A DNA stretch of 28,292 bases from a virus. The notes below the pieces were generated by a model. It was not told the DNA's origin, did not search any database, and was given only the letters and a program-made list of their open reading frames with translations. Position numbers and translations under genes: made by a program. Location: IMG/VR virus record IMGVR_UViG_3300032241_000707, positions 1 through 28,292 of that record; one strand, given 5' to 3'. The stretch's first letter is position 1; every line of letters starts with the position of its first letter. Of the stretch, positions 9,923-14,718 are shown piece by piece.

Positions 9923-10066
9923 GTGCCGCTGGTGAAGTCCACATCGAAACGGGCTTTCTCCGAAAACATTCGGCGCGAAGTCGCTGCGGGCAAACCGCAG
10001 AACCAGGCCGTGGCCATCGCGTACAGCGAAAAGCGCCAGGCCGTTAAAAAGGGCAAGCGCAAATGA
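9923..10066 (+). CDS. Small basic phage protein, 47 aa (GTG start)
   Basis: The frame encodes 47 residues starting from GTG as (M)PLVKSTSKRAFSENIRREV, then AAGKPQNQAVAIAYSEKR and a lysine-rich end (KKGKRK). This is the widespread phage micro-protein type, with the consensus KSxSKxAxxxNIxxE(M/V)xAGKPxxQAVAIA followed by a basic tail. Its function is unknown. An AGGAG site lies nine bases before the GTG. The stop overlaps the start of the GroES-like gene (ATGA). The gene is too short to show by length alone, but the family resemblance and spacing are strong. Confidence 0.85.
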   Translation: MPLVKSTSKRAFSENIRREVAAGKPQNQAVAIAYSEKRQAVKKGKRK

Positions 10067-10320
10067 CCGTCGGTGTTCGCATGATGCGCGATCGCATCCT
10101 GGTGCGCCCGTTGGATCGGGTGAAGAGCCAAGTGCTCGAGGTGATCTCCAAAGAGCGCCCGAACGTGGGCGAGATTGTTGCCGCCGGCCCTAAGTGCGAT
10201 GCGGTCAAGCCCGGCGACCTCATCCGCTTCGGTGAGTTTTCGTTTCCCGCGTACGAGCTCGATGGCGAGCAGTTTTTGATCCTTCAACAGGCCGACGTGG
10301 CCGGCGTTGTGGAGCAATGA
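10063..10320 (+). CDS. GroES-like co-chaperonin (Cpn10 family)
   Basis: The 85-residue protein aligns by eye with GroES: MRDRILVRP for LHDRVIVKR, GEIVAAG for GEVLAVG, VKPGDLIRF for VKVGDIVIF, and EQFLILQQADVAGVVE for the C-terminal EEVLIMSESDILAIVE. The mobile loop (residues about 17 to 34) is a few residues shorter than in GroES, with VLEVI where GroES has the GroEL-binding IVL. The segment between GEIVAAG and VKPGD is short, so the roof hairpin appears to be missing, as in T4 gp31. It probably replaces host GroES on GroEL to fold virion proteins, most plausibly the P22-like coat. It is translationally coupled to the 47-aa gene and lies just ahead of the packaging genes. Confidence 0.85.
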   Translation: MTVGVRMMRDRILVRPLDRVKSQVLEVISKERPNVGEIVAAGPKCDAVKPGDLIRFGEFSFPAYELDGEQFLILQQADVAGVVEQ

Positions 10321-10321
10321 G

Positions 10322-10516
10322 ATGGCTGCGTTCTACCTGCGCGTGATCGACGACGGCCAGGTGCGCGAGTTCAATGCGGACTCGGCAACTGGTCGCGAAT
10401 ATGAGGCCCTGGCAACGCTTTTGAGCGCTCCAGGCTATGCACCCAGCGCACCGGCCCATTCGCCCGCTCCTGCGCCTTCTGATGCGCCCGCAACGGCGCC
10501 TGCAAGCAATGGCTGA
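10322..10516 (+). CDS. Hypothetical protein, 64 aa, with Ala/Pro-rich tail
   Basis: The first 36 residues form a small folded unit (AAFYLRVIDDGQVREFNADSATGREYEALATLL). The last 25 are low complexity, built of Ala, Pro and Ser (APSAPAHSPAPAPSDAPATAP). The ATG at 10322 has GGAG seven bases upstream and follows the GroES-like stop by one base. A GTG upstream in the same frame would overlap that gene and is not preferred. The C-terminal end overlaps the next gene by eight bases. No family recognised. Confidence 0.65.
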   Translation: MAAFYLRVIDDGQVREFNADSATGREYEALATLLSAPGYAPSAPAHSPAPAPSDAPATAPASNG

Positions 10517-10892
10517 GGCATCTGTTTCCGTCCCGCAGAAATTGGGAGACGAGCCCTACAAGGTCGGCCCCGGCAAACCGCCGCTGCACACTCGATTTCA
10601 GCCTGGCAACAAGGCCAACCCTGGCGGCAAGCCCGTTGCATCGCGCAATTTTCTGCAGGCCCGTTTCCTCAAGGAGATGGCCGAGGACTTCGACAAGAAC
10701 GGCCGTCACGCCATCGTGCGCATGCGCGAGGAGCGCCCGAGCGATTACATCCGCGCCATTGCGTCGCTGATGCCCAAGGAGCTCGAGGTCAAGACGACCG
10801 CGATGGACGAGCTCACTGACGAGGCCCTGGACGCTGCGCTGGTCGCCGTGCAGGCGATCCTCGAGGCCCAAGGCGAGAAGGTGTCGGCGTGA
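10509..10892 (+). CDS. DUF5681-domain protein, putative terminase small subunit
   Basis: A 127-residue protein with the DUF5681 signature TRFQPGNKANPGGKP at residues 28 to 42. This is followed by a helical region (LQARFLKEMAEDFDKNGRHAIVRM, SDYIRAIASLMPKELEV) and a C-terminal helix. DUF5681 proteins are commonly encoded directly before large terminases and are taken as the small subunit or a DNA-recognition partner. The next gene here is the large terminase. The ATG at 10509 overlaps the previous gene by eight bases; the ribosome binding site is weak and coupling is likely. The terminase role is inferred from position and family habit. Confidence 0.68.
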   Translation: MAEASVSVPQKLGDEPYKVGPGKPPLHTRFQPGNKANPGGKPVASRNFLQARFLKEMAEDFDKNGRHAIVRMREERPSDYIRAIASLMPKELEVKTTAMDELTDEALDAALVAVQAILEAQGEKVSA

Positions 10893-10914
10893 GGCTCGAT
10901 TTTGCAAGTGCCGC

Positions 10915-10946
10915 TGTGGATAACCTGTGGACAACAGTTATTCACA
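10915..10946. promoter_or_regulatory. DnaA-box cluster, candidate replication origin
   Basis: Three 9-mers match DnaA boxes: TGTGGATAA at 10915 (complement TTATCCACA, perfect), TGTGGACAA at 10926 (TTGTCCACA), and TTATTCACA at 10938 (fits TTATNCACA). Starts are 11 and 12 bases apart, near one helical turn. They lie in the only sizeable gap of this region, between putative small and large terminase genes. Confidence 0.6.
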
Positions 10947-11020
10947 TGTGAGCTCACGTTATCTCATTGATTTATAAAGCTTTTTTGAAGCACTGCGTAT
11001 AACGTTCATTATGTCAACTT
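10947..11020 (+). promoter_or_regulatory. AT-rich segment between DnaA boxes and large terminase
   Basis: This stretch is markedly AT-rich compared with its surroundings. It starts with a GTGAGCTCAC palindrome (10948 to 10957), then holds TTGATTTATAAAG and a -10-like TATAAC at 10998. It could be an unwinding element for the adjacent DnaA boxes, a late promoter, or both. No convincing -35 or ribosome binding site for the terminase was found. Confidence 0.4.
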
Positions 11021-12619
11021 ATGCCGCAGCGCAGCAAAAACACTAAACCCCGCGCATCGTCGGCGATCATCGGCCAACTGCAGGGTGGCGTGGCCAATGT
11101 GACTGCTACAGATGGCACACCGGGGGGGCTGGGGGGTACCCCCGGGGGGTCCGCGGCCATGGGATTGGGCCCATCACCCATACGGCCGGAAATTCCGAAC
11201 GCCGAGGCCCTCCTCAAAGCGCTTCAGGCACAAGTCGCAAAGCGCCGTGCCGAGAACCAACTGCGCCATTACGCGCCCTATCCCAAGCAGCGCGACTTCC
11301 ACCAGGCTGGCAAAGCGCACCGCGAACGCCTGCTGATGGCCGGCAACCAGCTGGGCAAGACGCTGTCGGCCGGCGCCGAAATGGCCATGCACGCCACGGG
11401 GCGCTACCCCGACTGGTGGCAGGGCTACGTGTTCACCAAGGCCATGCCGTTCTGGGTGGCGGGGGTTACGGGCGAATCCACGCGGGACAACCCGCAGCGG
11501 ATCCTGTACGGCGCGCTGGGCCAGCCTGGCACCGGGATGATCCCGAAGGACGCGATCGCGGACGCAACGAACAAGCGCGGCATCCCCAACGCGCTCGACA
11601 CCCTGGTGATCACGCACGGGGGCGGGGGGGATGTTCAGGCGGGCGAGACGCTTATCGGGTTCAAGTCTTACGACCAGGGCCGGGAGAAGTGGCAGGGGCC
11701 GACCCTGGGTGCCGTCTGGTTCGACGAAGAGCCGCCCCTGGACATTTACACCGAGGGCCTGACGCGAACGAACGTTGCGATGGGACCGGTGCTGATCACG
11801 TTCACGCCTTTGATGGGCATGTCGGACGTGGTCAAGCGCTACCTGCTGGACACGGTGCCTGGCACGCACGTGACCAGCATGACGATCGAAGACGTCGACC
11901 ATTACACGGCCGAGGAGCGCGCCGCGATCATCGCGTCGTACCCGGCGCACGAGCGCGATGCGCGGGCTCGAGGCATTCCGGCGCTGGGCTCCGGGCGGGT
12001 GTTTCCGCTGGCCGAGGAGCTCATCCAGGTCGAGTCGTTTGACGTGCCGTCGCACTGGCCCCAGATCGGCGGCATCGACTTCGGCTGGGATCACCCGACC
12101 GCCTGCGTGCGCATGGCCTGGGACCGCGACAGCGACACGCTGTACGTAACCGCCGTGCATCGCGCACGTGAGCAGACGCCCGCGATGCTGGCGGCCTCGG
12201 TGCGCCCCTGGGGGGCCTGGTTGCCCTGGGCCTGGCCGCACGACGGGTTGCAGCACGACAAGGGCTCGGGCGAGCAGCTCGCCAGCCAGTACCGGCAACA
12301 GGGTCTGAAGATGCTGGCCGACCGGGCGACGTTCGAGGACGGCTCCAACGGCGTGGAAGCCGGCATCTTTGAGCTCATGGACCGCATGCAGACCGGGCGG
12401 TTCAAGGTGTTCCGGCACCTGACCGAATGGTTTGAAGAATTCCGCATGTACCACCGCAAGGACGGGCTCATCGTCAAGGTCAACGACGACCTGATGAGCG
12501 CCACGCGCTACGCGATGATGATGCGTCGGGCGGCTCGGGTGCGGGTCGATGAGAAGGTGCAGCTGATGCGTCGTCGGCTGCACGAGATGGCGCTGCCCGC
12601 GGGCGGGTGGATGAACTGA
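11021..12619 (+). CDS. terL: Terminase large subunit
   Basis: The 532-residue packaging motor ATPase-nuclease. Walker A is AGNQLGKT (107 to 114), Walker B is VWFDEE (D235/E236), and the coupling motif is ITFTP (about 260). The nuclease half starts with GGIDFGWDHPTA (D353), and a late acidic motif VNDDLMSATRYAM (about 488) supplies further ligands. It cuts concatemeric DNA and pumps it into the prohead through the portal encoded next. Residues 1 to 57 form a low-complexity, Gly/Pro-rich tail coded by long G and C runs (11122 to 11149). The ATG at 11021 lacks a ribosome binding site and follows an out-of-frame ATG at 11011. A start at 11159 (MGLGPSP) is possible and would remove the odd tail. 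Confidence 0.93.
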   Translation: MPQRSKNTKPRASSAIIGQLQGGVANVTATDGTPGGLGGTPGGSAAMGLGPSPIRPEIPNAEALLKALQAQVAKRRAENQLRHYAPYPKQRDFHQAGKAHRERLLMAGNQLGKTLSAGAEMAMHATGRYPDWWQGYVFTKAMPFWVAGVTGESTRDNPQRILYGALGQPGTGMIPKDAIADATNKRGIPNALDTLVITHGGGGDVQAGETLIGFKSYDQGREKWQGPTLGAVWFDEEPPLDIYTEGLTRTNVAMGPVLITFTPLMGMSDVVKRYLLDTVPGTHVTSMTIEDVDHYTAEERAAIIASYPAHERDARARGIPALGSGRVFPLAEELIQVESFDVPSHWPQIGGIDFGWDHPTACVRMAWDRDSDTLYVTAVHRAREQTPAMLAASVRPWGAWLPWAWPHDGLQHDKGSGEQLASQYRQQGLKMLADRATFEDGSNGVEAGIFELMDRMQTGRFKVFRHLTEWFEEFRMYHRKDGLIVKVNDDLMSATRYAMMMRRAARVRVDEKVQLMRRRLHEMALPAGGWMN

Positions 12620-12621
12620 CC

Positions 12622-14718
12622 ATGGCCTTTGACCCGAACGACGCCGTCGAGTTCCTGCGCTTGGTGACCGAGGTGGAGTCGATCAACCGGGCCTCGGGCC
12701 TGGAGGATCTCAGATTCTCCACGGGCGACCAGTGGCCCACCGAGGTGCAGCAGTCGCGCACACTCGAGTCCCGGCCGTGCCTGACGATCAACAAGATCGA
12801 CGCGCACATCCGGCAGATCACCAACGCCCAACGCCAGCAGCGCCCGCAGATCCGTGCGCACGCGCTGGATGCGGCCGCCTCCCCGCGCATTGCCGAGATC
12901 ATCACGGGGCTCACGCGGCACATTGAGATCAACTCCAACGCCGACCATGCGTATGACACGGCGTTCAACTTCCAGTGCCGGGTGGGCTGGGGTTACTGGC
13001 GGGTGGTGACCGACTACATCCGCGAGGACTCGTTCGACCAGGACATCTTTATTCGGGCGATCGACAACCCGTTCACGGTGTACTTTGACCCAAATTCGGT
13101 CGAGCCGGATGGGTCGGATGCCGAGACCTGCCTGATCACCGACCTGGTGCCGAAAAAGCAGTTCGAGCGGGAATACCCGGACGCCGAGGTGTCGGGCTTC
13201 CAGGGCAACGGCACGGGCGACGTGATGGTCGACTGGGTGACGCGCGAAGACATCCGCATTGCCGAGTATTTTACGATCGACCGCGTGCGCGACAAGCTGG
13301 TGATGCTGTCGGATGGCTCGACGATGTTCGCCTCCAACATGCCGCGCGGTGAGGTGCTGCGCATGCTGGGGCTCGAGGTCACCGGCGATCGCGACAGCTA
13401 CCGGCGCCGGGTGATGTGGCGCAAGGTGACGGCGCTTGACGTGCTCGAAGAGCGCGAGATGCGGGGCCGCTACATTCCGGTGGTGCCGGCCTACGGCGAC
13501 GTCGTGATGGTCGACGGAAAGCGCCTGAAATTCGGCATGGTGCGCTACGCGCGCGACCCGCAGATCATGTACAACTTCTGGCGCACCGCGATGACCGAGT
13601 CGGTTGCGATGGCGCCGAAGGCGAAGTGGCTGATGGCCGAGGGCCAGGACGAGGGCCACGAGAACGAGTGGGCGCGCGCCAACGTGAGCGCGTTTCCGAT
13701 CCTGCGCTACAAGCGCACCGACATCGATGGGCGCGAGGCGCCGCCACCCGTGCGGCTGCAGCCCGAGCCGCCGCCGTCGGGGGCGATGGAGGCCGCAGCC
13801 GCGATCTCTGCGGACCTGCAGGCGGTGCTGGGCATGTACGACCCGCAAATGGGCAAGCCCTCGGGGCCGAAGAGCGGGGCGGCGATCCGCGCCGAGCTTG
13901 GCCAGTCCGAGACGTCGAATTTCCACTACTTCGACAACCTGACGCGGTCGATGAAGCACACCGGTCGGATCATCCTGGATCTGATCCCGCACGTGTACGA
14001 CCGCGAGCGCGTGGTGCGCATCATCGGCCCCGAGGGCAAGCCCGACCTGGTCACGGTCAACCAGCCTGGCCAGGAGATGAACGACGACGGCCAGCTGGTC
14101 GACAAGATCCTGAACGACGTCACGATCGGCACTTACGACGTGGTGATGGACACGGGCCCGTCGTTCAACAGCCGGCGCGCCGAGGCCGTCCAGGCGATGA
14201 CGATGCTGCTGCAGACCTCGCCCGATGTGTTCAAGGCGGCGGGGGATCTGCTTTTCAGGAACATGGACTTCCCCGGCGCCGAGGTCATCGCCGACCGCCT
14301 GGCGGCGGCCAACCCGCTGGCGCAGATCGACAAGCAGTCGGACATCCCGCCCAAGGTTCAGATGATGATCAAGCAGCTGCAGGCGCAGAACCAGCAGCTG
14401 CAACAGCAACTCCAGGCCGCGGGCACCGAGATCAAGTTCCGGCACGGGCTGGAAGAGATCCGGCAGGACGGCGAGACCCGACGCGAGCTCATGCGCCAGC
14501 ACGTCAAGGCGCACGACACCCAGGTGCGCGCCGCCGCGGAGGTCGAGCGCGAGCGCATCGAGGACGAAACTTGGCGACACGACATCCATGTCAAGGCTCT
14601 CACGGCGCAAAACGTCGAGGAGCTGCGCGGGATCGTTGCGTTGCTGGCCAAGCGGATGGATGCCGCGCAATTTGAGAACAAAGCGGCGCAAGGCGACCGC
14701 GAAATCGAGAGGGTTTAA
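12622..14718 (+). CDS. Portal protein, P22 type
   Basis: A 698-residue protein, near the 725 residues of P22 gp1. The N-terminal part (SINRASGLEDLRFSTGDQWP, then LTINKIDAHIRQITNAQRQQRPQI) is typical of the P22-type portal family. Residues about 560 to 690 form a long Gln- and Arg-rich helical region (KQLQAQNQQLQQQLQ onward), matching the C-terminal helical barrel seen in P22. It forms the dodecameric DNA gate at one capsid vertex and docks terminase and the gp4-like protein. The ATG at 12622 follows the terminase stop by two bases. An in-frame GTG at 12607 adds five residues and overlaps the terminase; it is less likely. Confidence 0.92.
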   Translation: MAFDPNDAVEFLRLVTEVESINRASGLEDLRFSTGDQWPTEVQQSRTLESRPCLTINKIDAHIRQITNAQRQQRPQIRAHALDAAASPRIAEIITGLTRHIEINSNADHAYDTAFNFQCRVGWGYWRVVTDYIREDSFDQDIFIRAIDNPFTVYFDPNSVEPDGSDAETCLITDLVPKKQFEREYPDAEVSGFQGNGTGDVMVDWVTREDIRIAEYFTIDRVRDKLVMLSDGSTMFASNMPRGEVLRMLGLEVTGDRDSYRRRVMWRKVTALDVLEEREMRGRYIPVVPAYGDVVMVDGKRLKFGMVRYARDPQIMYNFWRTAMTESVAMAPKAKWLMAEGQDEGHENEWARANVSAFPILRYKRTDIDGREAPPPVRLQPEPPPSGAMEAAAAISADLQAVLGMYDPQMGKPSGPKSGAAIRAELGQSETSNFHYFDNLTRSMKHTGRIILDLIPHVYDRERVVRIIGPEGKPDLVTVNQPGQEMNDDGQLVDKILNDVTIGTYDVVMDTGPSFNSRRAEAVQAMTMLLQTSPDVFKAAGDLLFRNMDFPGAEVIADRLAAANPLAQIDKQSDIPPKVQMMIKQLQAQNQQLQQQLQAAGTEIKFRHGLEEIRQDGETRRELMRQHVKAHDTQVRAAAEVERERIEDETWRHDIHVKALTAQNVEELRGIVALLAKRMDAAQFENKAAQGDREIERV

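Follow-up and report, generated by a model that had tools for sequence, protein, structure and literature searches.

In phage P1, the Cre/lox system serves cyclisation and dimer resolution, and in phages of the P22 type the DNA is packaged by headfuls from pac, which is located in terS. The role of P1 Cre/lox in multimer resolution has been described (PMC10999674). With loxP beside pac, a tailed phage has a recombination site where packaging begins, well placed for circularisation of terminally redundant DNA and multimer resolution. The plasmid sites cer of ColE1 and psi of pSC101 contain a XerCD core and adjoining sites for accessory proteins, with a centre distinct from that of chromosomal dif, and the known IMEX use dif-like sites (PMC5357621). 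The locus analysed here, which lies between two terminase genes of a viral contig, was found to have the XerCD-type core and the distinct centre in common with cer and psi, and candidate accessory elements adjoin it; these resemble IHF and DnaA sites, and the locus is on a phage. It likewise places a candidate recombination site at a packaging locus as in P1, but it would depend on XerCD of the host where P1 supplies its own enzyme, and it is of the dif type, accompanied by IHF and DnaA elements.

The window, that is the whole stretch of DNA that was analysed, comprises the 28,292 bases of a single viral contig with an average GC content of about 62%. Its genes were found to include those for a terminase and a portal of the P22 type and for a DNA polymerase, a ssDNA-binding protein and a primase-helicase of the phage's own, and a PF00589 profile search found no integrase in the 28-kb window. 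Profile matches identified a terS-like gene (10437..10892, plus strand; DUF5681 below the Pfam cut-off, phrog_8771) followed by terL (11021..12619, plus strand; Terminase_6N/6C), and, as part of the context, a P22-like portal gene (12607..14718, plus strand). The start of terL lies at 11021 or possibly at about 11159, where the alignment of its relatives begins, and codon statistics give no choice between the two starts. A Cpn10 (GroES)-like gene was present at 10063-10320, directly upstream of terS.

The gap between terS and terL was found to contain three DnaA boxes starting at 10915, 10926 and 10938, with steps of 11 and 12 bases and a span of 32 bases, as an earlier note on this DNA had claimed. 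Against a DnaA consensus taken from general knowledge, box 1 (TTATCCACA, 10915..10923, minus strand) is a perfect match and box 2 (TTGTCCACA, 10926..10934, minus strand) contains one mismatch; box 3 (TTATTCACA, 10938..10946) lies on the plus strand. Nowhere else in the window do three boxes fall within 40 bases, and dinucleotide shuffling reproduced such a cluster once in 200 whole-window randomisations and 9 times in 5000 local ones, in agreement with the opinion of that note that chance is an unlikely source. The boxes were followed by the presence of an AT-rich tract at 10947..11020 (34% GC over 74 bases); their placement between the terminase genes and next to an AT-rich stretch was thus borne out, and DnaA boxes lie beside an AT-rich candidate unwinding element as in a DnaA-dependent origin. 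The 11-base repeats were also considered as TerS-binding iterons, which was rejected because the TGTGGATAA unit occurs beside different TerS families, and this argues for a host protein. In a Microviridae genome (L190, MH572269; locus 1495-1522), a 22-base double DnaA box was identical to positions 10914-10935 of the window and was found to adjoin a sequence resembling a lone XerD half-site.

The interval described in the earlier note ended at 11012, inside a dif-like site of 28 bases that had been overlooked (10992-11019, ACTGCGTATAA-CGTTCA-TTATGTCAACT) and that starts 45 bases downstream of the boxes. The site contains a XerC half-site of 11 bp (10992..11002) followed by the central region CGTTCA of 6 bp (11003..11008) and a XerD half-site of 11 bp (11009..11019), all read on the plus strand. 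With the half-sites scored from general knowledge, 21 of the 21 scored arm positions were matched, and the two 11-bp half-sites show the partial dyad symmetry and the spacing, within 6-8 bp, of such sites. A degenerate dif pattern matched the window once, with 0 matches expected in window shuffles, and the same arm pattern was found in bacterial genomes mostly at one place per matching genome, as is the case for chromosomal dif. Viral contigs contained at least 120 matches with a spacer of 6 and 10 with the decoy spacer of 7. An imperfect inverted repeat of 16 nt, whose arms at 10982-10997 and 11025-11040 are 81% complementary, was found to flank the dif-like site.

Between the boxes and the dif-like site, an IHF-like site (AATCAATGAGATA, 10960..10972, minus strand) was found with one mismatch to WATCAANNNNTTR, the IHF consensus being taken from general knowledge. 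Its offset relative to the first base of dif is -32, a position at which IHF matches are found beside other viral dif sites, and a near-match of this kind occurs in 12.5% of local AT-rich 41-nt windows, which makes it weak when taken alone. A G/C tract (CCGGGGGGGCTGGGGGGTACCCCCGGGGGGT) was present at 11120..11150, and the neighbourhood of viral dif sites is enriched in runs of this kind. As FtsK-loading KOPS the tract gave some matches with inconsistent orientation, and this candidate was rejected. The gap would then be a composite host-factor module in which DnaA boxes and a probable IHF site accompany a dif-like target of the host's XerC and XerD recombinases.

The surroundings (within 150 bases) of 85 nonredundant viral dif sites, among the matches listed, were compared with a GC-matched control. 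An IHF consensus was found at 27 of the 85 sites (control 2.8, maximum 7) and a G or C run of at least 7 at 20 sites (control 0.4); at least one DnaA box was present at 7 sites (control 1.8, maximum 5) and at least two boxes at 3 sites (control 0.04). The IHF matches clustered in two zones, one 18-36 nt ahead of dif and the other 12-30 nt past it. Since the enrichment of IHF sites and G/C runs is strong and that of DnaA boxes modest, IHF and the G/C tract are general partners of the site and DnaA an optional one, and DnaA boxes were rejected as a general feature of viral dif sites. The TGTGGATAA boxes were located 23 times on the XerC side versus 4 times on the other side, a count to which two scans that required the XerC side had contributed; in the window the DnaA boxes and the IHF-like site are on the XerC side, and elsewhere the DnaA boxes are mostly so.

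These counts bear on the reading of the gap as a DnaA- and IHF-dependent origin of the oriC or pSC101 type, with an AT-rich unwinding element and a dif-like site that would just resolve replicon dimers, which we consider improbable. Three phased boxes, a possible IHF site and an AT-rich tract are shared with such origins and stand in oriC-like order, and the primase-helicase gene lies 1.4 kb upstream; however, DnaA boxes are optional beside viral dif sites and absent from most related modules, the IHF spacing is tied to dif, the dif-like site is central, and a polymerase, an SSB and a primase-helicase are encoded by the phage itself. The cumulative GC skew rises through 11 kb, with no switch there, and turns near 16 kb, gene orientation being a confounder. 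The proposal of the earlier note that the gap carries a DnaA-linked functional element is plausible, whereas its origin-only version omits the strongest element, the dif-like site; an additional origin role may exist. Its alternative of a DnaA-controlled late promoter was dropped, as no promoter-like or terminator-like site was found by the scan, which for promoters covered the sigma-70-like kind in 10400-11400.

The module was found to recur in unrelated phages. Two scans of viral contigs for the TGTGGANAA box, in either orientation, on the XerC side and near dif gave 22 and 16 contigs. Because a box on the XerC side was a requirement of both scans, these contigs attest recurrence and not frequency. 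The order terS-module-terL was found in L133/L136/L140/L142, in L110 and in L174/L189, the module being reversed in the last pair, and the module was located close upstream of the terminase genes in L138/L144, L178, L130/L141 and L175-L183; the identity of TerS or TerL was profile-checked for a subset of the module contigs. The combination of DnaA boxes and dif at the same slot in unrelated phages is thus not noise. As in the lox-pac arrangement of P1, a recombination-type site adjoins the packaging genes, with terS on one side and terL on the other both in this window and in unrelated phages, the neighbouring pac being presumed. No description of dif sites at the terminase genes of tailed phages was found in the literature searched, most subscription papers being outside the search.

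The scans without a box requirement gave, among the matches listed, 31 nonredundant dif-bearing contigs in which TerL was detected with PF03237. In 12 of these 31, the dif site preceded the TerL domain by no more than 1.6 kb, with 2.9 expected (P=2.5e-6), a generous test because dif sites are mostly intergenic; stricter nulls within the TerL-bearing loci gave P=0.018 for intergenic placement and P=9e-5 for AT-rich placement. Large phages often had dif far from terL, some cultured carriers also had it there, and most of the comparison contigs are metagenomic fragments. Paired dif-like sites about 75-105 bases apart were found in single contigs (L103, 959-1062; L108, 3272-3373; L137, 7601-7734), with DnaA boxes alongside in L103 and L137. 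DnaA boxes beside a dif-like site, together with a ParA-like gene, were also present in L131/L153 (Acinetobacter sp. A47, a contig of 74 kb), which is probably a plasmid.

Two sites undergo full exchange more readily when their centres match, and the dif centre of 70 Gammaproteobacteria genomes was found to be nearly always TGTATA, TATATA or close. A sampled host spacer was present in 0 of 17 terminase-adjacent groups, this window included, versus 21 of 63 other viral sites (Fisher P=0.004), the first dif scan, whose pattern fixed two spacer bases, being left out of these statistics. The centre CGTTCA of the window does not match the sampled Gammaproteobacteria spacers, although the dif spacer of its own host may differ from these. 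These results bear on the reading of the site as an attP of the IMEX type, at which host XerCD would integrate the phage at chromosomal dif, as in CTXphi, VGJphi, TLCphi, gokushoviruses and some non-tailed dsDNA phages. In common with those elements, the window contains a virus-borne dif-like site that would use host XerCD; no integrase was found in its 28 kb, and VGJphi integrates despite a partly different central region (PMC5357621). The sites described here differ in being linked to the terminase of tailed phages and in having centres unlike the sampled chromosomal dif, and phage genes flank both sides of the terminase-linked sites examined, with no integrated form among them. One strict IHF-dif pattern was found in 0 of 369 Gammaproteobacteria genomes, a test of low power with a pattern that gave just 10 viral contigs, and an integrase (PF00589) scored above the cut-off in 1 of 27 module records, most of which may be fragments. 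Integration at dif is therefore rather unlikely in our judgement, the more so as dif-like sites were also found in cultured rV5-like, Seurat and Barba phages, which are commonly considered lytic.

In Seurat, an IHF consensus was found to adjoin the dif-like site. The dif-like sites of KM236243, MK719705 and LR694610 (Seurat, Barba3A and an rV5-like phage) are non-coding. Three genomes named as Campylobacter phages (MG065646, MG065661 and MG065682) contained the same dif-like match as the rV5-like coliphages at a similar genome length and are possibly mislabelled. In L262 and L272, the dif-like site lies at or near the contig edge with TerL 16-18 kb away, and these may be tailed proviruses integrated at dif.

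The earlier note had held that loss of the boxes in close relatives would count against its proposal, and such a loss was found: both the box cluster and the dif-like site were absent from 80 terL relatives, in the sequence available. In the relatives that were closely examined, terS and terL mostly abut or overlap. The module is therefore an addition in this lineage, and it is dispensable, since most phages with this TerL do without it. The site was also absent from the stretches read of MEP301, the Manatee Spring phages, BcepC6B and CF418P1. In phage C72C1, the stretch from terS to terL was found to contain a near-dif site, a AAGTCATTGA motif and C tracts, with no DnaA boxes. The absence from the 80 relatives, together with weak blastn matches to Acinetobacter plasmids over the AT-rich and dif stretch, would suit a relic or chance insertion that has no function today, such as a piece of a plasmid or of a filamentous phage; however, every arm position is intact, the context is module-like with an IHF-like site, boxes and a G/C tract, and the same slot is reused in unrelated phages, so that we hold this explanation to be very improbable.

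The reading that we prefer, and to which the sequence evidence leads us to give an even chance, is that the gap module is a phage self-recombination site for XerCD of the host, to which IHF and DnaA would lend architectural help, and that it would circularise or monomerise the phage DNA near the start of packaging. After infection, or on formation of head-to-tail multimers, host XerCD would recombine two phage copies of the site, and terminally redundant DNA would be circularised or multimers turned into monomers. A site just downstream of pac would be present at both ends of a terminally redundant headful, as is loxP next to pac in P1. The task of ArgR/PepA and ArcA/PepA at cer and psi, bending and pairing the DNA, would fall here to DnaA and IHF. 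The carriers among phages considered lytic, phage C72C1, the spacers unlike those of the sampled genomes and the flanking of the examined sites by phage genes speak for recombination of one phage copy with another. Against self-recombination were weighed the weaker terminase association under the stricter nulls, the mismatch of the IHF-like site in the window and the normal need of dif-type sites for FtsK, and against its pac-linked version the cultured carriers with dif far from terL, which it leaves unexplained.

A wider and more tentative proposal, which we would put somewhat below an even chance, is that unrelated tailed-phage lineages independently acquired a module of XerCD and IHF sites, sometimes DnaA boxes, and a G/C tract at the junction of their packaging genes. 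Such a module would be the host-recombinase equivalent of lox-pac, and its difference from chromosomal dif would be maintained to confine recombination to the phage's own DNA and leave the chromosome out of it. So far, phages that use XerCD have mainly been ssDNA and non-tailed ones with integration at dif; dif-like sites in viral contigs would not always be integration sites. If true, the proposal would add a host dependence to the phage cycle and a self-recombination in tailed phages that is linked to the packaging genes, with xerC, xerD, ihf and dnaA becoming testable host factors, and it would account for the circularisation or monomerisation of the genome in phages without an integrase or Cre.
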